A DNA stretch of 31,166 bases, from positions 1-31,166 of the IMG/VR virus record IMGVR_UViG_3300030388_001434; one strand, given 5' to 3'. Of this stretch, positions 11,490 through 21,962 are shown piece by piece. The position numbers and the translations under genes were made by a program. The notes under the pieces were generated by a model. That model did not search any database. It was not told the DNA's origin and saw only the letters and a list, made by a program, of their open reading frames with translations. This DNA is from a virus. Every line of letters begins with the position of its first letter. The first letter of the stretch is position 1.

Positions 11490-11945
11490 TTAAAAGTTTA
11501 GACGCGATTTGGCGACTCTAAAAAATTACAAATTTTCTGACCACCCAAAACCCCATCAAATTCGTAACTTCTTTTTTTGACACGCTTTTCGGCCTCTAAA
11601 AATTTTATAAATTTCTGACAGCTTGAAAACACCGTCAAATATTTAACTAATTATTTCAGAGCGTTTTCGCGCACCTTAAAAAATGAAAATCAAAACACCT
11701 CCTCTACAGGCCACGCGGTTACTGGGCTGTAGAAACTAATTCCTTTTGCTTCGTTTTTTGAAAGTTTGGGCGAAAATAAATTTATTTGATAGGGGGTGTG
11801 AAATTCTTGCAACTCTTTTTCGTTTAAAAAGTTTTTTCGTTTTTCGGGGCATTTTCAAACGGATTCAGGCATCGGCTAAAATTCTGACCAACTCTTTTGC
11901 TCTTAAAAAGTTTTTCCGTTTTTCGGGGGGTCAAAAAAATGAAAA
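11490..11945. repeat. Noncoding module A: degenerate repeat array with about 79-bp period
   Basis: A gene-free stretch between convergent genes. Unit landmarks: a CTCTAAAAA...TTTCTGAC element at 11516 and 11595 (79 apart) with a weak third copy near 11674; a hairpin with CTACAG (11704-11709) and CTGTAG (11727-11732); then a CAACTCTTTTTCGTTTAAAA element at 11810 and 11889 (79 apart). The last element forms a weak AT hairpin followed by T-runs on the plus strand. The same elements occur in the same order and spacing in module B (22005-22465). No credible coding sequence is seen. Possible roles: tandem terminators, an RNA 3' region, or a replication or packaging site. Confidence 0.7.
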
Positions 11946-12816: not shown

Positions 12817-14691
12817 TTACGCCTTTCTTAGCGTGGAAAACCTATGCCCTACAATAACGTCGGTGGGGTCGCTTCCTTGGTAAATCCTAATGAGAGCCGC
12901 TGGATTATCTTCAGATGCATTAAGCGTGAAGTCTGTTTTAGGTACGGATAGCTTACCGCTTTTTACTATCTTTGTGATCTTACCTCTAGCCCTGCCACCT
13001 GAACTATTCCAGCTAACCATATCACCAACTGATAAATCTCCAGCCTCGGCTTTCGTATCTTCCTCAGCAATAATTTGCGCTCTCTTAGCCTTAGCCCAAG
13101 ATTGCCCTGCATCACCACCCCACAAAGCCCAAGCAATTCTCCCCGCTGATGGGTAACCCTTTTCAGATGGGCTAAACCCTGCGCCTTGCTTATCTACTTC
13201 ATGGCGGGAAAAGTAACTGTGCATCCTAGTAACCACATCAAGGGACAGCTTCTGGCGATCAACTAATTGATTAGCTCTAGTCACGCCTACCTGTGTACCG
13301 CCCCTTTTATGCTTTTTTCTCCAATCTAGCCCTCTCTGCGCTTCCTGAGACATAGCCTTGCTTGGTGTTGAATCTATATCAGATAGTGCCTTAGAATCGT
13401 CATACAGCTCATAATCCTTGCTATCTTCTTCCTCTACTGGAGCATCGGGAAGCCCTTCATTCAAAGGGAACAAACTAGCGTTAACCAACAAGCCATCCGC
13501 TCCATCAATAGCGTTTAGGCCAAGGCGCTCTCTTGCCTCGTTCCTAGTCATGATGCCTTCCTTTACTGCACCGATAACATTCTCATAAATTCTCTTTCTG
13601 CGTTCTGATAAGGCTGGTATCTCGTCGGTGTCAAACTTAAAGAAAACATCCTCGCTAAACTGAGGCATAAGCCATTCGTTAATATCTGACTGAACCTTTG
13701 ATAGCATAGGCAATATTGTTTCTTCGTAAAGAGCCAATCGCGCCTCAGCTACATTTGAGTAAGTTTGTGAGTCTGGCACGCCAACCAACTGACTAGGGAC
13801 GCCAAAACACATGGCAATATCGGTTGCGCTCATGTGTTTTAGGTTAATAAAGTCCATATCCTTGGGTGACAGCCCCATCTCTTTCCAATCAAAATCACCC
13901 TCTAACAGCATCGGCCTACCTGCATTATCAGTTCCAGAGAACCTATTATTTAGGTCAGTCATAAGTTGCTGTCGTTGCCCTGCGGTTAGGCTGGTTGCAA
14001 AACCGTCTGAATCTTTAGGTTTAAATATAACTGCACCTGATGGCCTAGCTCCATTATTGAGAAGGTTAATGTTGTGCTTGCTTGATAGGTTATGCTGGTC
14101 AACTTCAACAGCGGCCGCGTTAAGTGGTGATAGGCCGTAAAAGTCATCAAGTGGGTTCCATAGCTTAGTCTGCTTTAACTCACTAAATCCGCTATCTTGG
14201 TCTACATCATAAACAGCCTCAGTTCGTCCATTTACCTTGTAATCGTACCTTGCTGGCATAGCACCGCGACCACCGCTAATGGTAATTCTATCGGGACGGA
14301 GAAGGTGCAATTCTTTAGGGACGTTACTAATACCCGCCACCTTGAGCATATAACTATTGCCAGATAAAAGAAGATAGCCAAACAAGGCGTTCATAAACTC
14401 AGAATAACTTTGAAGTGGGTTGGGTCTATTGAGAAGGCTTTTAGCTGGATGGTTCTCTATTTCATCCCCATCAGCATTGCATATCTTGAATGGCACACCT
14501 GACGCACCTTTTGCTATTTCATTTACGCACCGATAAACGATAGCGTTCTTCATGTACCCTTCTGATGCTAAATCTTCGTATTGGTAGTTTGTTGGCTGGG
14601 TAGACCCTACTCCGAAATACCCGACCATAGATGAGTTCTTGGTGCTTACTGGTTCTACTGTCTTCGCTCTAAACCTATCAAATATAGCCAT
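12817..14691 (-). CDS. Portal protein with two C-terminal extension domains
   Basis: 624 residues from the ATG at 14691, which shares a base with the terminase stop (TAATG) and has GGAGA upstream; an earlier in-frame TTG at 14706 is less likely. Residues about 35-410 are an HK97-type portal ('NAIVYRCVNEIAKGASGVPF', 'PDSQTYSNVAEARLALYEE'). Residues about 448-540 form a second domain ('GLDWRKKHKRGGTQVGVTRA', 'MHSYFSRHEVDKQGAGF', 'IAWALWGGDAGQSWA') known from other phage head proteins. Residues about 552-624 match the HVA1/DUF2945 Tudor-like domain ('VGDMVSWNSSGGRARGKI'). Typical portals of this type end near 400-500 residues, so this is a fusion. Confidence 0.92.
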   Translation of the reverse strand: MAIFDRFRAKTVEPVSTKNSSMVGYFGVGSTQPTNYQYEDLASEGYMKNAIVYRCVNEIAKGASGVPFKICNADGDEIENHPAKSLLNRPNPLQSYSEFMNALFGYLLLSGNSYMLKVAGISNVPKELHLLRPDRITISGGRGAMPARYDYKVNGRTEAVYDVDQDSGFSELKQTKLWNPLDDFYGLSPLNAAAVEVDQHNLSSKHNINLLNNGARPSGAVIFKPKDSDGFATSLTAGQRQQLMTDLNNRFSGTDNAGRPMLLEGDFDWKEMGLSPKDMDFINLKHMSATDIAMCFGVPSQLVGVPDSQTYSNVAEARLALYEETILPMLSKVQSDINEWLMPQFSEDVFFKFDTDEIPALSERRKRIYENVIGAVKEGIMTRNEARERLGLNAIDGADGLLVNASLFPLNEGLPDAPVEEEDSKDYELYDDSKALSDIDSTPSKAMSQEAQRGLDWRKKHKRGGTQVGVTRANQLVDRQKLSLDVVTRMHSYFSRHEVDKQGAGFSPSEKGYPSAGRIAWALWGGDAGQSWAKAKRAQIIAEEDTKAEAGDLSVGDMVSWNSSGGRARGKITKIVKSGKLSVPKTDFTLNASEDNPAALIRIYQGSDPTDVIVGHRFSTLRKA

Positions 14692-15992
14692 TATGAAATT
14701 CTCCAAGCAATATCACCTGATGATTTGCTTAATTCAGTTAATCCCCATACCAAGGCATCAAGCCTATCGGGGGAGGGTTTTGGCCTGTCACCTGTGTAAG
14801 TACACATCTGCTCTTCTAGCTCTGGATAAATTCCAATGTGGTGGACTTTGCCTTGCTCGTATAACGCTGATATTGGCTCCGCTCTAAGCATCTTTCCTCT
14901 ACTAGCATGAACCGATCTATACTTGCAGTTTACATCAACGCTTCTAATTAGACTCTCAACTAAATCACCGCCATTGTTAACTTCCGCAACGATCAGGTTA
15001 GCTTGCCATGTGTGATAAAGCTCTACAGAGAGCCTTGCCCAATCGTTTGGAGTATAGACACCAGAACGATCATCTAACAGATAATACTTCTTCTCAGCGT
15101 CTTTTCCTACTACAACAATCCCTGACTCGTCAGAATCAGCGTTAGCAGTAACCGCTGGGTCAACCGCTACAATTATTTTAGTGAACTCTGGCTTAGTGTC
15201 TCTCGGCAACCTGCAAGCGTCTATCATGCTGTGATTCCATAGCGCCCCTTCTAAGTTATCAAGCACTTCCGCATAGAGTTCCTGCCTACCCAGCGCAGTC
15301 CCTTCATACTTTTCTTTTAGCATGGCCAGCGTAGATGCCGCTAAGTTATCGGAGTTCTCAAAGGTGTTACCTGTAGTAACTACCACATCCTTTCTATCTA
15401 GCAACTTACGGATGAGAGGCGTGGGTTTGGGTGTGGTGGTAATGATGCACTTGGGGTTCTCACCTAGACGTAAGCCAAACATTAGCTGGTCAAAGGCTTC
15501 TGGGTATCTCCATGCCGCAAGCTCATCACACCAAGCTCTGTGAAACTGTGGACCTCGTAAACGCTCTGGCTCAGTAGCAGAAAACCCATAAATTATAGAG
15601 CCATTAAACAAGCGTATTTCAGATGCAGATGAATTGTAACCCTGACCCCTACCCTTGAGCATACACTCCTCTGGGCAGGTTTTTAGTATCCCTGACACCC
15701 CGCCAAAGGCAACCCTTCTAATATCTCCAAACGTAGGAGCTAGGACGGCTACCTGAACATTTGGATTTCTAAGAGCGTAAAGCAACGCATCGGATGCCCC
15801 TGTTCTAGTCTTACCCCACCCTCTGCCAGCAAGGATGAGCCATATATTCCAATCACCAACTGGAGTTAGTTGAGTCGGCCTAGCTGTAGATAGCCAATCA
15901 GTGTAGAGACTTGCTACCGCCTTGTGACTTTGCGTTCGCAAGCTCGTCAAGTTGGTCCATAACTCGGTGGAAGGCTTCTGGATTGCTGACAT
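14691..15992 (-). CDS. terL: Terminase large subunit
   Basis: 433 residues; the ATP-driven DNA packaging motor with nuclease. Walker A 'LAGRGWGKTRTG' (about 54-65), Walker B with the catalytic pair Asp-Glu at 156-157 in 'HRAWCDELAAW', coupling motif 'CIITTTPKP' (182-190), and an RNase H-fold nuclease with Asp278 in 'IIVAVDPAV' plus a late acidic residue in 'SPDRLDALVWGL'. It resembles the Terminase_6/GTA-type group. The ATG at 15992 overlaps the small terminase gene by 95 bases; AAAGG upstream supports it, but a TTG start nearer the small-terminase stop cannot be excluded. Confidence 0.95.
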   Translation of the reverse strand: MSAIQKPSTELWTNLTSLRTQSHKAVASLYTDWLSTARPTQLTPVGDWNIWLILAGRGWGKTRTGASDALLYALRNPNVQVAVLAPTFGDIRRVAFGGVSGILKTCPEECMLKGRGQGYNSSASEIRLFNGSIIYGFSATEPERLRGPQFHRAWCDELAAWRYPEAFDQLMFGLRLGENPKCIITTTPKPTPLIRKLLDRKDVVVTTGNTFENSDNLAASTLAMLKEKYEGTALGRQELYAEVLDNLEGALWNHSMIDACRLPRDTKPEFTKIIVAVDPAVTANADSDESGIVVVGKDAEKKYYLLDDRSGVYTPNDWARLSVELYHTWQANLIVAEVNNGGDLVESLIRSVDVNCKYRSVHASRGKMLRAEPISALYEQGKVHHIGIYPELEEQMCTYTGDRPKPSPDRLDALVWGLTELSKSSGDIAWRIS

Positions 15993-16458
15993 TTGCGGAT
16001 ACCTTTGAAATTTCCTGCGCTTCGCCTAGTGCGAGTTTCCCAAGTTTTTGGGCGTTCTGTGCAACGTGAGAAGCCGCCTGTAGCTCTTGCATAGATATAG
16101 CCTCAACAGCGGGGTTGTTAGCTTCTGCTTGATAAGCCTTTTGTAGCTTTCGGCCTACCCTACCTAATAGTGCTTGAGCTATCTGGATGGCCGTATCGTC
16201 TAGCCTTTTGCTGTCAGACACCATTCGCTCAACCCTATCAGCATCAACCTTCTCTTGAATGTCTGTCTGAACTTGGTTTTTCTGGCCTTGCCAGTTCTCA
16301 TCGGATGAGTAGCTGTAAAGGGTAGTGCTGGATACCCCATGCTTTATTACTAGAGCCTTCATAGTTGGGTACTGTCTCACACCCTCCTCGTTAGTTACTC
16401 CATGAACAAACTCATCTCTAATCGCTAGTTTTAAATCTTCTGTTAACTTGATTGCCAT
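15898..16458 (-). CDS. Putative terminase small subunit
   Basis: 186 residues. The N-terminus carries a helix-turn-helix-like segment: 'YPTMKALVIKHGVSSTTLYS' followed by 'YSSDENWQGQK', as in small terminases that recognise the packaging site. The rest is helical with a long amphipathic stretch ('AIQIAQALLGRVGRKLQKAY'). It lies directly before and overlaps the large terminase, the usual order. The gene starts 4 bases after the IbrB-like gene, linking packaging to the modification-type cluster. Confidence 0.8.
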   Translation of the reverse strand: MAIKLTEDLKLAIRDEFVHGVTNEEGVRQYPTMKALVIKHGVSSTTLYSYSSDENWQGQKNQVQTDIQEKVDADRVERMVSDSKRLDDTAIQIAQALLGRVGRKLQKAYQAEANNPAVEAISMQELQAASHVAQNAQKLGKLALGEAQEISKVSANVSNPEAFHRVMDQLDELANAKSQGGSKSLH

Positions 16459-16462
16459 ATGC

Positions 16463-17044
16463 TTAACCGTTACCGTTATTTTCTATCTTTTCCGAATCTT
16501 TAAATTCTTTCTTAATTCGTATCTGGTGTTTTGTTACCCATGCTTTGTTATATTCGGTATCTGCAAAGAGCTTAGAGAATCCAGTGATATGCTTTAACCT
16601 AAGCAACTCATCAGGTTCCATCCCTAAGTGGTTACATACCTCTTCATCCTTCCAACCGTTATCAAGCATAGAGAATACCATACTGGACATGCCACTTACT
16701 GAGTGCTGTCCCCTTGCCCTATTGTGCCTAACTGTAGCGGCCATTCTTTCATTAATATCTTTCTTGATTACAACTATTGGAACCCTACCTTGAGTGGTGT
16801 CAAATATATCCTTGTTGTTCTTACAGGTAAAGTATCTGTGGAAGCCGTCAACAATCACATACTTCTTTTTTTCTTCATCGTAGATTGTAACTATAGGCTG
16901 TGTATAACCATCGTGCTTGATTGAGGTATGTAGCAATTTCATCTCTTGCCCTGCAACTGAGTTAGGGTTGTAGTCGTTTGGCTCTACGTCATCAACAGAA
17001 ACCCATAAAACATCGCTAATTGGTTGGTTTGGTATATCACTCAT
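16463..17044 (-). CDS. IbrB-like ParB/Srx-domain protein
   Basis: 193 residues. A ParB N-terminal (ParB/sulfiredoxin) fold is visible: 'VDDVEPNDYNPNSVAG', 'HDGYTQPIVTIYDEEKKK', 'YVIVDGFHRYF' (the nucleotide-binding box), then 'TVRHNRARGQHS' and a helical part with 'DGWKDEEVCNHLGMEPDE'-like HTH character. IbrB, first described with IbrA as an activator of eib genes in E. coli, has this domain, and the two are encoded together. Here it overlaps the IbrA-like gene by 8 bases. ParB-fold phage proteins can be NTPases or nucleases; the substrate is unknown. Confidence 0.8.
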   Translation of the reverse strand: MSDIPNQPISDVLWVSVDDVEPNDYNPNSVAGQEMKLLHTSIKHDGYTQPIVTIYDEEKKKYVIVDGFHRYFTCKNNKDIFDTTQGRVPIVVIKKDINERMAATVRHNRARGQHSVSGMSSMVFSMLDNGWKDEEVCNHLGMEPDELLRLKHITGFSKLFADTEYNKAWVTKHQIRIKKEFKDSEKIENNGNG

Positions 17045-18215
17045 GGGTAGTGCCTCTCTGATGTGGCTTTATGAACCTAAGGTCTCTCTCTGGACGATTC
17101 CAGTTTATTTCTAACCCCCTTTTGAATTTAAGAAAATTAATTGTTTCTGGTCTACCAAGAAAGTTGGATATTTTTGCAAACTCAAAATCATTGGCAAGTA
17201 TCCCTAGTATCTGGGTTTTGTACATTTCATGGATGTTATTCATATCACTAAACTTTCCATCCATCCATAAATGCTTTTTCTCTAGCTTTTTCCTTATGCC
17301 ATCATCTTGTATTAGATTGTCGCAAAGGTGGTCTCTGTACTCCCTCCAATCTTTAAACATAAACGGCAACTCATTAGCCCTAAACATTTCATTTTTTTTC
17401 ATATGCTTAGTTTGATTAATGCCTTTAAGTCTTTTAGTTAACGCATTCCAAGTGTCACCCTCTAGCTCATGCAAATAAAATAACTGATCTACAGCCGTTT
17501 CATGGTGAAGGTTGCTCACCCGCATTTTTATTGGGGCTATCCCATACCTATAAAACTCGTCATATATTTTGCAGTAATCCCAACTGTGGTCGTGAATTGC
17601 TTTCCAAATATCGGTATAGCTCCAATCATACAAAGGATAGAAAACATAATGGCCTTGCTTCTCATCGTAGACCTTGCCATAGGTTATATCTTTATAGGTA
17701 GCCCCATTAGTCAAACCTGCTCGTCTGTTTGGGCTTTCCTCTGCTCTGACACCCCCTAGTAAAGCAACTGACTTACCCTTGTAATGCTTTGCCAGATACT
17801 TGGGAAACATATTATAAAAGCGATCAGTACCGTAAGTATTTTCTTTGATGCTTATAGGGTCTTTCTCCCTCATGTGTTCTTCATTTAAATCCCAGCAGTT
17901 CAACCAAGGGTAATCCATAGTGGTCGCATTAAATAATTTGATAGGCACCTGTAGCCAGTGAGGGGTCACTTCGTCGCGGTACATGACCCTTTTAACGTAA
18001 TCAACAACAGCTTGCCACTCGGCCTCTTGGTCAAGCATCATCACTGTAAGGGGTAATTTGCCCTCTTTCTCAGCAACTAACAGCGCCATTTCAAGCGTTA
18101 CGGTGCTATCTTTGCCCCCACTAAAGCTAACTACCACTTCATCAAACTCTCGGAACAAGAAAGTAATTCTTTCAATGGCTTGGTCAAATACGTTATCTTT
18201 TAGAAAAATTTTCAT
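17037..18215 (-). CDS. IbrA-like PP-loop enzyme (PAPS reductase/ATP pyrophosphatase family)
   Basis: 392 residues. The PP-loop 'VVSFSGGKDSTVTLEM' (about 29-44) binds ATP as in PAPS reductases and thiolation enzymes; 'ALLGGVRAEESPNRRAG' and 'YPLYDWSYTDIWKAIHDHSW' are typical of the IbrA (DUF3440-type) subgroup. The C-terminal 120 residues are helical and basic, unlike classical CysH, and no CysH-type C-terminal catalytic Cys motif is seen. It overlaps the second methyltransferase-like gene by 4 bases and the ParB-like gene by 8. Members could adenylylate and sulfur-modify a nucleic acid or act as regulators; the phage role is open. Confidence 0.85.
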   Translation of the reverse strand: MKIFLKDNVFDQAIERITFLFREFDEVVVSFSGGKDSTVTLEMALLVAEKEGKLPLTVMMLDQEAEWQAVVDYVKRVMYRDEVTPHWLQVPIKLFNATTMDYPWLNCWDLNEEHMREKDPISIKENTYGTDRFYNMFPKYLAKHYKGKSVALLGGVRAEESPNRRAGLTNGATYKDITYGKVYDEKQGHYVFYPLYDWSYTDIWKAIHDHSWDYCKIYDEFYRYGIAPIKMRVSNLHHETAVDQLFYLHELEGDTWNALTKRLKGINQTKHMKKNEMFRANELPFMFKDWREYRDHLCDNLIQDDGIRKKLEKKHLWMDGKFSDMNNIHEMYKTQILGILANDFEFAKISNFLGRPETINFLKFKRGLEINWNRPERDLRFIKPHQRGTTHE

Positions 18216-18802
18216 AGTTTATTCATTTGTCCTGAAATAACCGTAATACACTTTCCATCATAGTCTGATGCCACAAACCTTTGGCCTCCACCTATCATAA
18301 AATTTTTAACTGGATAGCCATATCCGCAAGTAAAATCACCTAGGCATTTATACCTAGAGCCAAGTCTTTGGCAGATAAGTTCTGTTGATGAGAGTAGAGT
18401 CGGGTTTTCATCATTCCAGACACCCATTGAAACCACATCACCATTTAAAGTAGTCTCTACAATCACATCTGGACTTGGCAACTTTGCTAGGTTTGTTGCA
18501 CTCATAATAAGATATATTGGCTTAGTCCACTCAAGTAGAATTTTAGATACGGCTTCAATTAAATCGTTAAATTTTATATCCTCTATACCAGCCCGCTCAT
18601 TAAAAACCTTTAATCCACTAGGAGCGTAAGGAGGCTCAGAATACAAAATGTCACATTCATTAAAATCAACTGCTAAACCGTCAGATACAAAATCATGCTT
18701 CAACATAATTCCATTGTGATGCTCAACCCTAGCGGTCTCTTTTATCCCTTTGTAGGTAACAGATCTGTTCTTCAAAGCCGTATGATAAAACACTACTTGC
18801 AA
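18212..18802 (-). CDS. Methyltransferase-like protein with EPPY motif
   Basis: 196 residues. Near residue 56 'CDILYSEPPYAPSG' replaces the usual D/N-PP-Y/W of amino-methyltransferases with EPPY, and toward the C-terminus 'LGDFTCGYGYPVKNFMIGGG' resembles the AdoMet-binding FxGxG motif. The motif order (PPY first, glycine loop late) equals that of the neighbouring DPPW protein. Glu in place of Asp may change or abolish methyl transfer. It overlaps its neighbours by 10 and 4 bases. Likely DNA-directed; activity uncertain. Confidence 0.65.
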   Translation of the reverse strand: MQVVFYHTALKNRSVTYKGIKETARVEHHNGIMLKHDFVSDGLAVDFNECDILYSEPPYAPSGLKVFNERAGIEDIKFNDLIEAVSKILLEWTKPIYLIMSATNLAKLPSPDVIVETTLNGDVVSMGVWNDENPTLLSSTELICQRLGSRYKCLGDFTCGYGYPVKNFMIGGGQRFVASDYDGKCITVISGQMNKL

Positions 18803-19428
18803 TCCTTACTCAATCTAGCGATTGTTTTTTCTAATCGCTTTTCGTTTAGCTCATTACCGTAAAATATCAATCCCTTATCAACTGTTGCTTGAGCTGTATA
18901 TCCCATACCACACATAGGGTCTAATACCGATTCCGCATCTTTAGGAAGCAAGTAATTAAAAATAAAACTGACCAGCTTCTGCCCCCTTAGTTCATAGCAT
19001 TTTTCAGTAAAATAAGCCTCGTCAGGCATTTTGAAGGTGCCGCTTTTGGATATAATATGAACATCTAAAGGCAACAGTTTGGCCGCAGACCCATACCGTG
19101 ACGTGTAAACACCGTGATGTGTAAATCCTGACTCTTTGCAGACAGAAATAACATCTGACCTCCAGCCTACTCCGTACTCAATTACAGCCAGATCTTTTAT
19201 GTTTTTATATGCCATATTAAAATAAAAAGGCAAAAACTCCGCATAATCAATGTCAGATTTCTCTCTGCCTGTGTGTCTTTTGTTGATGGTTTGCCAGTAC
19301 CGAAGATTTCCCTGCCCCCAAGGAGGGTCGCTATATAAAAAATCAGCTTGAAATCCACTCATTAGGATATCAATTCCGTTCATTACGTCTGATCGCTGAA
19401 CCTTATGCTTTCCTATTTTAGTAATCAT
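18793..19428 (-). CDS. DNA amino-methyltransferase-like protein (DPPW)
   Basis: 211 residues. Catalytic motif IV 'FLYSDPPWGQGNLRYW' (about 30-45) and AdoMet motif I 'VLDPMCGMGYTAQATV' (about 168-183), followed by 'IFYGNELNEKRLEKT', as in N6-adenine/N4-cytosine methyltransferases with motif IV before motif I. No separate target-recognition domain is obvious, so specificity may come from the neighbouring ParB-like protein or be relaxed. It starts 3 bases after the preceding gene. Probable role: protecting phage DNA from restriction or adding the first step of a larger modification. Confidence 0.78.
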   Translation of the reverse strand: MITKIGKHKVQRSDVMNGIDILMSGFQADFLYSDPPWGQGNLRYWQTINKRHTGREKSDIDYAEFLPFYFNMAYKNIKDLAVIEYGVGWRSDVISVCKESGFTHHGVYTSRYGSAAKLLPLDVHIISKSGTFKMPDEAYFTEKCYELRGQKLVSFIFNYLLPKDAESVLDPMCGMGYTAQATVDKGLIFYGNELNEKRLEKTIARLSKDCK

Positions 19429-19431
19429 ATT

Positions 19432-19713
19432 TTACTCCGTCGGCTTTCTGTTTATAAGGATTGTCTCAGATACAGGCGCACCCATAGTCCAATATTTATA
19501 CCCATCAAAATTAAAACAAATATAAGGCCATCCACGAAACTTCTCTTCTATTCCATATTTTCTAATTAAAATAACGCTCTCTTCAAAGGCTTCTGGGAAC
19601 TTCCAGCTCTTTTTTAAGGTGTAATAGTGAGGATTTTTTGGCATCGTTTTGGCAAAAATCCACCTCTGGAGATGAAGCCTATTTGATAAATCTTCTTGAG
19701 ATTTAGATTCCAT
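19432..19713 (-). CDS. Conserved small phage protein of the ParB/methyltransferase cluster
   Basis: 93 residues from the ATG at 19713, which overlaps the ParB-like gene by 11 bases; a longer frame exists upstream but would lie wholly inside that gene. The C-terminal half, 'FRGWPYICFNFDGYKYWTMG' and then APVSETILINR, is a recognisable motif of a small protein often encoded with phage ParB and methyltransferase genes. N-terminal part: 'HYYTLKKSWKFPEAFEESVI'. Function unknown; an accessory to the modification cluster is inferred from context. Confidence 0.65.
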   Translation of the reverse strand: MESKSQEDLSNRLHLQRWIFAKTMPKNPHYYTLKKSWKFPEAFEESVILIRKYGIEEKFRGWPYICFNFDGYKYWTMGAPVSETILINRKPTE

Positions 19714-20281
19714 CAAACGTAAAGCTCTCTGCACAATACGGACACATAACCTCAGTCCCTTGAGCGGAGCGATCACCTGTCAACTTATCCATATTTGCGC
19801 TCATTGAATCTTGAGTTTTTGAAATATCCCCTGCGTTAATATCAGAATAAGAGGTTGTCGGATTCATATTTGGCTCAAAATCTAAGGAAATGTTTTCATC
19901 AAAACCAATTAAATCAAGACTAAAGCCTGAACTATTGATCTCTTTAAGCTCCGCAAAATACAAAGAGCTATCCCACTCACTACCCTCTGACAACTTATTG
20001 TCCGCAATGACGTACGCCTTTTTCTGAGTATCTGACCAGCCTTTTGCCGTTATACATGGGACTGTTTCCATTCCCAAAGATTTAGCCGCAAACAAACGAC
20101 CATGCCCCGCAAGCACAACTTGCTTCTCATCAATCAATATGGGGACTGTGAAACCCCATTCTCGGATGCTATTTGCAATCTGAATTATTTGCTCATTTGA
20201 GTGAATGTTAGGATTTCTGTCATAAGGAATTAAGCTGTCAACAGCAACTTCTGTCATATCTTTGGCGTGAATTGTAGTCAT
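19703..20281 (-). CDS. ParB-domain protein with C-terminal CPYC motif
   Basis: 192 residues. ParB N-terminal fold: 'DSLIPYDRNPNIHSNEQI', 'GFTVPILIDEKQVVLAGHGR' with the GHGR nucleotide box (59-62), then LFAAKSLG and a linker 'AYVIADNKLSEGSEWD' typical of phage ParB-methyltransferase systems. The C-terminus ends with CPYCAESF, half of a zinc knuckle. It heads the leftward operon and probably acts with the methyltransferases encoded next, for example by guiding them to DNA. A weak TACAAT -10 (20311-20316, minus) lies upstream. Confidence 0.82.
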   Translation of the reverse strand: MTTIHAKDMTEVAVDSLIPYDRNPNIHSNEQIIQIANSIREWGFTVPILIDEKQVVLAGHGRLFAAKSLGMETVPCITAKGWSDTQKKAYVIADNKLSEGSEWDSSLYFAELKEINSSGFSLDLIGFDENISLDFEPNMNPTTSYSDINAGDISKTQDSMSANMDKLTGDRSAQGTEVMCPYCAESFTFDGI

Positions 20282-20420: not shown

Positions 20421-20466
20421 AAATTATGTAGAGAGAAAGAAACCAACCCATAAAAGGTGCTTGAAA

Positions 20467-21495
20467 ATGTTAAATTTACCAGTAATTAGCAACAAGAGTT
20501 TCGGAATTGAAGTTGAGTTTGTTGGCGCTTGCCCTAGGCACGTTGCCCAAGTTATAAACAGCCTTGAGGGTGTTGAATGTTCTTATGCTGGCTACACTCA
20601 CCTTACAACTAGCTACTGGAAAGTTGTCTACGATGGCTCTTTAAGCGGTGTTCGCGGCCATGCTGGTGAGCTGGTTAGCCCAATTCTTAACGGTGTTGAG
20701 GGTGTTAGAGAGTTAGAGCGTGTAATTGAGGCGCTCAATTCTGTAGAAGGCGTTACTGTAAACCGTAGCTGTGGTTTGCACGTTCATTTAGATTGCCGTG
20801 AAATGAACATTAACGAAATCAAAACTACCTATGAGCGGTACTCAAACCATGAAGAGCAAATTGATCTTTGTATGCCCCGCTCTCGCAGAGGAAGCCCTCG
20901 CTGGTGTGCCAGCACTGCAAGCGTAAAGAACGCTGTTAAACGCGCAACGTGTAAGCCTAACGCGGCTAGAGCCGCAGAGCGTTACTACAAAGTAAACCTC
21001 ACTAACATAGCCAGCAGAGGCTCTATTGAGTTTCGCCAGCATAGCGGAACAACTGAGTTCAAGAAAATTGTGAACTGGCTTTCTTTCCTAATGCAGTTTG
21101 TTGAGAGTAGCATCCAGATGGCTGGCTCAACAGCGGTCAAGCCTAGTGCATGGTATGCACAGCTTAAAACTTTAGTAGGAAAGTGGGGCGGTGATTTTAG
21201 TTATAGCAAGTCTACTAGGAGCTGGAATGTTGTTAAAAACGGAGTCTTAGTAACTAGGCTGTCTAATTGCCAAATCTCAGAGCTATATGTTAGCGGTTCT
21301 GCAATGAAAGCAAAAGGTTTGCGCCCATTGCACCAGTTAGAGAACCTGCTAGAAGTATACGGCCTCCCTTACTCTGAGCTTATGGCCGCTGTAAGCAACC
21401 CTGTTACAGTCTCAGAAAATGATCAAGGCGTTTACCACGGCATAACTACCCAAATCCAAGATTACCTGAGAGAGCGCCAAGAAGAGCTTTCTTAA
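20467..21495 (+). CDS. Amidoligase-family (COOH-NH2 ligase, glutamine synthetase-like) enzyme
   Basis: 342 residues from the ATG at 20467 (AAGGTG 7 bases upstream; an in-frame TTG at 20461 is too close to that site). Amidoligase_2 motifs are present in order: 'FGIEVEFVG' (12-20), 'DGSLSGVRGHAGELVSPIL' (56-74), 'SCGLHVHLDC' (101-110), 'ERYYKVNL' (about 176) and 'GSIEFRQHSGT' (about 189). These correspond to the metal/ATP-binding Glu, His and Arg residues of the glutamine synthetase fold. The family is predicted to join carboxylates and amines into amide or peptide links. Its partner gene downstream is a gamma-glutamylcyclotransferase, so a gamma-glutamyl-type bond is a plausible product. Confidence 0.88.
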   Translation: MLNLPVISNKSFGIEVEFVGACPRHVAQVINSLEGVECSYAGYTHLTTSYWKVVYDGSLSGVRGHAGELVSPILNGVEGVRELERVIEALNSVEGVTVNRSCGLHVHLDCREMNINEIKTTYERYSNHEEQIDLCMPRSRRGSPRWCASTASVKNAVKRATCKPNAARAAERYYKVNLTNIASRGSIEFRQHSGTTEFKKIVNWLSFLMQFVESSIQMAGSTAVKPSAWYAQLKTLVGKWGGDFSYSKSTRSWNVVKNGVLVTRLSNCQISELYVSGSAMKAKGLRPLHQLENLLEVYGLPYSELMAAVSNPVTVSENDQGVYHGITTQIQDYLRERQEELS

Positions 21496-21530: not shown

Positions 21531-21962
21531 ATGAATACAATAACTGAATACTTATATGGGGCTTATGGCTCCAACCTTAACAAAGACCAGATGGAGTTCA
21601 GATGCAAGAACGCTACGCCTGTGAAAAGCTATACGCTGAAGGGACACGCGCTAAAATTTAGAGGGGTTGCCGATGTAGAGGTATCTACAGATGGAAGCTC
21701 TGTTCCACTAGGATTGTGGAAGATAACAAAAGATTGTGAAAAGAGCCTTGATAGATACGAAGGATACCCTAACCTGTACGTTAAAAAGTTTATTGAGACA
21801 GAGCATGGCTTAGTTATGATTTACATTATGCGAAACCAAGATAGCCTATACCCACCCTCCAACTACTACCTTGACGGAATTGCTACAGGATATTATGATT
21901 TCTCGCTAGACAACAGAAAGCTCAAAGATGCTGTTACAGATAGTTATTTAAACCAGCAATAA
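21531..21962 (+). CDS. Gamma-glutamylcyclotransferase-like protein (AIG2/GGCT fold)
   Basis: 143 residues. The fold signature 'YGAYGSNLNKDQM' (9-21) binds the gamma-glutamyl group, and Glu77 in 'LDRYEGYPNLYVKKF' is the expected catalytic acid. These enzymes release 5-oxoproline from gamma-glutamyl amines or peptides. AAGGA lies upstream, and the gene starts 35 bases after the amidoligase stop, so the two form one transcription unit ended by a strong terminator. In amidoligase gene clusters GGCT proteins are thought to reverse or trim the amide bond. The cellular target (peptidoglycan, polyamine or protein tag) cannot be read here. Confidence 0.85.
   Translation: MNTITEYLYGAYGSNLNKDQMEFRCKNATPVKSYTLKGHALKFRGVADVEVSTDGSSVPLGLWKITKDCEKSLDRYEGYPNLYVKKFIETEHGLVMIYIMRNQDSLYPPSNYYLDGIATGYYDFSLDNRKLKDAVTDSYLNQQ

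Follow-up and report, generated by a model that had tools for sequence, protein, structure and literature searches.

Gene organization of the locus

The window analysed here is a 31,166-nucleotide stretch of viral DNA (IMG/VR record IMGVR_UViG_3300030388_001434, positions 1 to 31,166), whose minus strand carries a compact run of six genes from 20281 down to 16463, followed by the genes for the small and large terminase subunits, TerS and TerL. The open reading frames bear out both the six genes and the order given in the original prediction. Across hundreds of bacterial viruses, the same arrangement recurs as a cassette made up of a ParB-fold protein with a CPxC tail, the small protein YWT, a variable set of enzymes, IbrA, IbrB, and then the terminase. 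We read the locus, with moderate confidence, as a post-replicative phage DNA-hypermodification cassette in which a constant core is combined with an exchangeable tailoring module beside the terminase.

All eight genes lie on the minus strand. The cassette begins with a core ParB-fold protein that ends in a CPYC motif (19703 to 20281; Pfam ParB_N 5.5e-6, phrog_620 9e-49). This is followed by YWT (19432 to 19713), a small domain with the pattern FAKTMPxxPHxY ... YKYWTMG ... LINR, whose ATG start at 19713 overlaps the end of the ParB gene. Two tailoring genes come next, encoding DPPW (18793 to 19428), which resembles beta-class N6-adenine/N4-cytosine DNA methyltransferases, and EPPY (18212 to 18802), which has a DPPW-paralogous beta-class DNA methyltransferase fold with an altered motif IV. 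The EPPY start was called at the TTG at 18802, but the GTG at 18793 is favoured by its relatives and is probably the true one. The two remaining core genes encode IbrA (17037 to 18215), a PP-loop enzyme resembling ATP pyrophosphatases and adenylyltransferases, and its partner IbrB (16463 to 17044; phrog_2159 5.6e-71), a protein of the ParB/sulfiredoxin fold. Neighbouring cassette genes overlap by a few bases or lie 3 to 4 bases apart. TerS (15898 to 16458; phrog_6299 9.2e-5) starts at 16458, 4 bases past the end of IbrB, and is followed by TerL (14691 to 15992; Terminase_6N 1.5e-16, with Terminase_6C); both are conserved context of the cassette. The cassette had been described as fused to the packaging operon, of which the adjacency to TerS and TerL holds and the fusion does not.

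Linkage of the core genes

Related loci were collected with two baits, YWT alone, which gave 80 viral contigs, and IbrA alone, which gave 543 matches. The closest 80 of these were kept, so that the second set samples one IbrA clade. The linkage of ParB, YWT, IbrA and IbrB is far beyond chance, because all 80 YWT-baited contigs encode IbrA and all 80 of the IbrA-baited contigs encode IbrB. When two loci reached through EPPY are included, IbrA is present in 82/82 YWT-type loci and IbrB in every one of the 56 with enough flanking sequence. Among the best 80 of the 543 IbrA matches, ParB is found in 77 and YWT in 63 (50/59 where the flank is sufficient). The position at the terminase is likewise conserved: in 27/28 related records in which TerL was found, it lies downstream of IbrB in the same orientation, at a distance of 0.4 to 2.4 kb. 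A survey of all six families had been suggested originally, with independent, scattered occurrence named among the outcomes that would speak against the proposal. In viruses, no such scatter is seen for ParB, YWT, IbrA and IbrB; it does describe the two methyltransferases, which are variable and do not belong to the core.

An exchangeable tailoring module

DPPW and EPPY are just one of the enzyme sets that can make up an exchangeable module lying between YWT and IbrA. In other phages this interval is occupied by GNAT proteins, glycosyltransferases, class I methyltransferases, an oxygenase/cupin-like protein, or combinations of these. At least one tailoring enzyme is present in 143/144 distinct contigs, and 15 class combinations were counted, including none. 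The glycosyltransferase GT1 was assigned through the glucosyltransferase family phrog_854 (2e-8), and the oxygenase/cupin-like family, OG5, may be an oxygenase or a cupin to judge from its residue pattern. Comparison of the GT1 and OG5 profiles with solved structures found no real relative for either.

Recombination of the module is directly visible in two related phages. In a near-identical phage (L012), TerL, TerS, IbrB and IbrA are 97 to 99% identical to those of the window and the replication side is about 97% identical, yet GT1 and OG5 stand where the window has DPPW and EPPY, and similarity stops at the IbrA start. The converse is seen in a more distant phage (L003). Here the flanks are 76 to 84% identical to the window while YWT, DPPW and EPPY are 94 to 98% identical, and the module, YWT included, has therefore been transferred between phages as a unit. 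Over 94 loci, at least 37 module changes are required on the YWT tree and at least 40 on the IbrA tree, against a mean of about 66 for shuffled labels. We did not retain the proposal that tailoring type follows YWT far more closely than it follows IbrA, as the difference between 37 and 40 changes is weak.

The DPPW and EPPY methyltransferases

The original prediction of two methyltransferase folds is upheld, for DPPW by profile and for EPPY by hhalign and Foldseek. The DPPW profile matches the solved structures of CcrM (6.6e-6), DpnA and MboIIA, and its catalytic motif and the GxG of motif I are invariant across family members, in permuted order. It scores below the gathering threshold of Pfam N6_N4_Mtase (19.4 versus 26.7). 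By its motifs and its homology to solved methyltransferases, DPPW is classed as a predicted beta-class DNA amino-methyltransferase. EPPY has no Pfam hit and no PHROG family. Its profile aligns with that of DPPW (hhalign 97.1%, E 5.7e-11), which makes the two paralogues, and its predicted structure (predicted local distance difference test score, pLDDT, 88.6) matches M1.HpyAVI with a Foldseek probability of 1.00 (1.2e-4), followed by M.BceJIV and CcrM. The modelled fold is thus that of a beta-class DNA amino-methyltransferase. The canonical motif IV, [DNS]PP[YFW], is missing from EPPY, with E or another residue in first place in most members, and the reaction may for this reason differ from that of a usual amino-methyltransferase.

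DPPW and EPPY share fold and motif order with CcrM, M1.HpyAVI and M.BceJIV, but differ from them in being short and lacking an obvious target-recognition domain, and in the [ED]xP[YW] form of motif IV in EPPY. An obligate heterodimer of the METTL3/METTL14 kind was considered and discarded as a general model, because DPPW and EPPY are often found one without the other.

The ParB-fold proteins and YWT

Both ParB-fold proteins, the first ParB and IbrB, pass the Pfam ParB_N gathering score; neither reaches the partition model TIGR00180 (25.1 and 31.2 against a curated cut-off of 58.45). They are told apart by the CPxC tail, which is present in 57/57 relatives of the first ParB and in 0/78 IbrB proteins.

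The YWT family domain spans about 90 residues, of which H29, W75 and N88 are invariant in an alignment of 58 sequences; an alignment subset was used for the pattern search, as the whole-family alignment is too diverse. Its structure is predicted by AlphaFold2 (AF2) with a pLDDT of 94.6, and comparison of this model with solved structures gave no usable fold match (best Foldseek E 0.28; VIA Z at most 3.7). In 15 of the 58 representatives YWT stands at the N terminus of a longer protein, the remainder of which is a class I S-adenosylmethionine (SAM) methyltransferase of cluster 2. A search of INPHARED phages with a single EPPY or YWT protein gave no matches. YWT is also present in numerous genomes from several bacterial phyla (L098 to L177); in 25/80 a class I SAM methyltransferase lies next to it or is joined to it in one protein.

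Identity of IbrA and IbrB

IbrA passes the gathering score of Pfam PAPS_reduct (7.6e-18) and falls in phrog_2302 (1.9e-80); this family and phrog_2159, that of IbrB, are phage families named IbrA and IbrB. The two genes form an adjacent IbrA/IbrB-like pair, and tblastn matches carry the same names. When the IbrA profile is compared with solved structures, the nearest relative is CysD, a sulfate adenylyltransferase, followed by FAD synthase and, weakly, PAPS reductase. The PP-loop residues are invariant. Among 54 aligned IbrA sequences there is no invariant cysteine column, the best reaching 80%, and the orthologue in phage Hendrix (gp158) has zero cysteines. The chemistry had been suggested to be possibly sulfur- or adenylate-based; the adenylate part agrees with these nearest relatives, while the sulfur part is disfavoured by the cysteines and by the curated models and a search for a desulfurase, both given below.

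Alternative explanations

Genes of this kind are usually, and wrongly, assigned to sulfur metabolism, and the simplest form of that reading is auxiliary metabolism, in which IbrA, as a viral CysH, would enhance assimilatory sulfate reduction and have its neighbours beside it only incidentally. The PAPS_reduct match supports it, the same label is given in RefSeq and by authors, and viral cysH has been read as sulfur metabolism in virome papers (PMC9301287, PMC8226683, PMC10434257). The curated CysH models are, however, far from being reached (TIGR00434, 20.8 versus 165.1 bits; NF002537, 21.8 versus 154), IbrA is obligately linked to IbrB, ParB and tailoring enzymes, and with CysD as its nearest solved relative and no conserved cysteine this reading is highly improbable. 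IbrA could also act like DndC in phosphorothioation or another DNA thiolation. A PP-loop enzyme with a ParB-fold partner does recall DndC and DndB, and there are weak DndC matches (PADLOC 1.3e-8), but the curated DndC model is missed by a wide gap (TIGR03183, 24.9 versus 290.4 bits) and the cysteines required by DndC (PMC10853773) are not conserved in IbrA. In addition, a search of 33 related virus records, most of them fragments, found no cysteine desulfurase (PF00266), though a host enzyme could serve. We consider thiolation very unlikely. Taken over both reactions, sulfate assimilation and phosphorothioation by IbrA are judged unlikely because the protein resembles CysD and FAD synthase, has no conserved cysteine and stays below the CysH and DndC cut-offs.

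The other two alternatives leave sulfur aside. The ParB protein and the split methyltransferases might protect phage DNA by ordinary methylation, with IbrA and IbrB a separate transcription-activating pair. Phages commonly have ParB-methyltransferase fusions (phrog_498), DPPW appears catalytically intact from its motifs, and IbrA/IbrB-like proteins in phage records are annotated as a "co-activator of prophage gene expression". Against this, most relatives have no methyltransferases and carry GNATs or glycosyltransferases between YWT and IbrA instead, and a pure regulator would not need such coupling; we regard this explanation as unlikely. It is also conceivable that the target is not DNA but tRNA, a glycan of the host or a protein of the virion, for example terminase or capsid, given the many substrates of GNATs, glycosyltransferases and class I methyltransferases and the suggestion of peptide or amine chemistry in an adjoining amidoligase/GGACT pair, described below. 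The ParB-fold partners and the beta-class DNA amino-methyltransferases point to DNA, as does the conserved terminase position, and a target other than DNA seems rather improbable.

A proposed hypermodification pathway

In the DNA-hypermodification reading preferred here, we infer DNA as the target from the ParB-fold partners, the DNA amino-methyltransferases and the terminase position. IbrA probably adenylates its target without a cysteine of its own, as suggested by its likeness to CysD and FAD synthase, its invariant PP-loop, the lack of a conserved cysteine and the unreached cut-offs, and the nucleophile that follows may be nitrogen, oxygen or externally supplied sulfur. No thymidylate-synthase-family gene (PF00303) was found in the same 33 records, and hence no source of a pre-made hydroxymethyl nucleotide; together with the missing desulfurase this argues, softly, for modification in place on DNA and not for a self-contained sulfur route. 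The exact step carried out by IbrA is proposed only tentatively.

In the preferred reading the ParB-fold proteins would, by their fold, bind DNA and nucleotide. With ATP, IbrA would adenylate a target oxygen, most likely on the base, and a nitrogen or oxygen nucleophile would replace it, as might be expected from the PP-loop family and the lack of a conserved cysteine. YWT may bring or present the tailoring enzymes, in keeping with its methyltransferase fusions and its travelling with the module. These enzymes, here DPPW and EPPY, belong to families that methylate, acetylate, glycosylate or oxidise, and would act on the activated product. Swapping the module would change the final mark, plausibly allowing escape from host restriction, and the position beside the terminase suggests a late step. 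A bolder version, possible if doubtful, is a new route to modified DNA in which IbrA and IbrB, encoded at the terminase, activate a base in finished phage DNA by adenylation and not through sulfur, YWT serves as an adaptor, and interchangeable methyl-, acetyl-, glycosyl- and oxygenase modules yield combinatorial nucleosides in many phages. The original proposal of a multi-step DNA modification linked to packaging fits the recurrence in divergent phages, the TerL position and the DNA amino-methyltransferase class, and to that extent is partly supported.

ParB-like ATPases are known to assist DNA modification, DpdB with DpdA and DndB with DndC (PMC12839542, PMC10853773), and the cassette offers an analogous pairing of a ParB-like protein with a modifying enzyme. 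Like Dnd (DndABCDE), it combines a PP-loop ATP pyrophosphatase with a ParB-superfamily protein; it differs in the cysteines and scores of IbrA, in the lack of a DndA-type desulfurase in related records and in its swappable transferases. With the Dpd 7-deazaguanine system it shares a base-modifying enzyme helped by a ParB-like ATPase (DpdB), but none of the six proteins has a Dpd/TGT match, and the place of the core enzyme is taken by a PP-loop enzyme of the adenylating type. Thymidine hypermodification of phages by the 5-hydroxymethyldeoxyuridine (hmdU) route proceeds from a core base chemistry to diverse tailoring enzymes. The same logic is proposed for the cassette from its genes, although its core enzymes are others and no thymidylate-synthase-family hydroxymethylase appears in the related, fragmentary records.

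Several points weigh against the hypermodification reading. The chemistry and the DNA target are inferred from the genes, and the substrate of the glycosyl-, acetyl- and methyltransferases could be protein, glycan or RNA. YWT is not detectable in 9/59 full IbrA-baited loci, and in bacterial genomes it is not dedicated to the IbrA system, because IbrA is present in only 7/80 of them. OG5 is taken for an oxygenase only from an HxD...H pattern, with a weak Cupin_2 match in one member, and since most contigs are fragments, the absence of thymidylate synthase and cysteine desulfurase is soft evidence. The architecture itself, that is gene content, order, linkage, module swapping and enzyme families, is directly observed.

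If the reading is correct, a widespread modular pathway is added to phage DNA modifications, and IbrA and IbrB, including the near-universal ybdN and ybdM of E. coli, gain a biochemical direction. YWT would be a defined family for which no fold match is known, the sulfur-cycling reading of viral "cysH auxiliary metabolic genes" would be wrong for at least some of them, and new nucleosides with their transferases could be useful as tools. A literature search found no paper describing the cassette; its coverage of phage base modification was incomplete and novelty is accordingly provisional.

Isolated carriers and other IbrA/IbrB pairs

The cassette is carried by the isolated Microbacterium phages Hendrix, Rasputia, Leaf and Dewdrop, which make the hypothesis directly testable. 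With its record ends taken as contiguous, Hendrix has two glycosyltransferases, a YWT/methyltransferase fusion, a GNAT, IbrA, IbrB, two ParB proteins, gp4 and TerL, in that order. Rasputia, which like Hendrix grows on M. foliorum NRRL B-24224, carries another set of glycosyltransferases.

IbrA and IbrB had been thought known only as a regulatory pair in E. coli, which is incomplete. Of 50,697 phage records, about 214 contain IbrA/IbrB-like pairs, and the E. coli ybdL-ybdM-ybdN locus holds a chromosomal pair of an IbrB-like and a PAPS-reductase-like protein (ybdM-ybdN) in 5329/5426 genomes. Repression of ybdNM by YbdO/CitR has been described (PMC9068703). In E. coli IbrA/IbrB and chromosomal ybdN/ybdM, members of these two families are thus again adjacent, but YWT and a tailoring module are missing from those named phage and E. 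coli pairs that were examined, whereas the paralogue group of the window is tied to the terminase and to tailoring enzymes. Pseudoalteromonas phage XCL1123, Gaia, Streptococcus phage CHPC1230 and other phages with this pair lack both YWT and tailoring genes, and seven such phages of another clade have none of the tailoring families. In XCL1123 (L090, 5592 to 5984) and Gaia (L092, 4611 to 5510) the pair is accompanied by an ectoine-synthase-like cupin, which is possibly another kind of partner enzyme; the Pfam match in XCL1123 is 1.7e-35, and in Gaia the cupin and IbrB form a single fused protein.

Neighbouring features

On the plus strand, divergent from the cassette, lie an Amidoligase_2 gene (20461 to 21495; Pfam 1.6e-32), found in 36/154 related loci, and a GGACT-like gamma-glutamyl cyclotransferase (21531 to 21962; Pfam 1.5e-7), found in 29/154, the two occurring together in 29/154. 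Between L012 and the window the amidoligase shares only 72% identity, despite the 97 to 99% identity of flanking genes there. The membership of both genes is uncertain, and the pair may be a cassette accessory or an unrelated neighbour. Beyond TerL, the portal protein (12817 to 14706, minus strand) has a C-terminal Hva1_TUDOR domain (residues 561 to 607, 9.4e-9), which is unusual for a portal. Between 10001 and 12000 the GC content falls to 0.36, compared with about 0.43 around it, and open reading frames are few; several partly overlapping, self-similar matches lie near 11514 to 11926.

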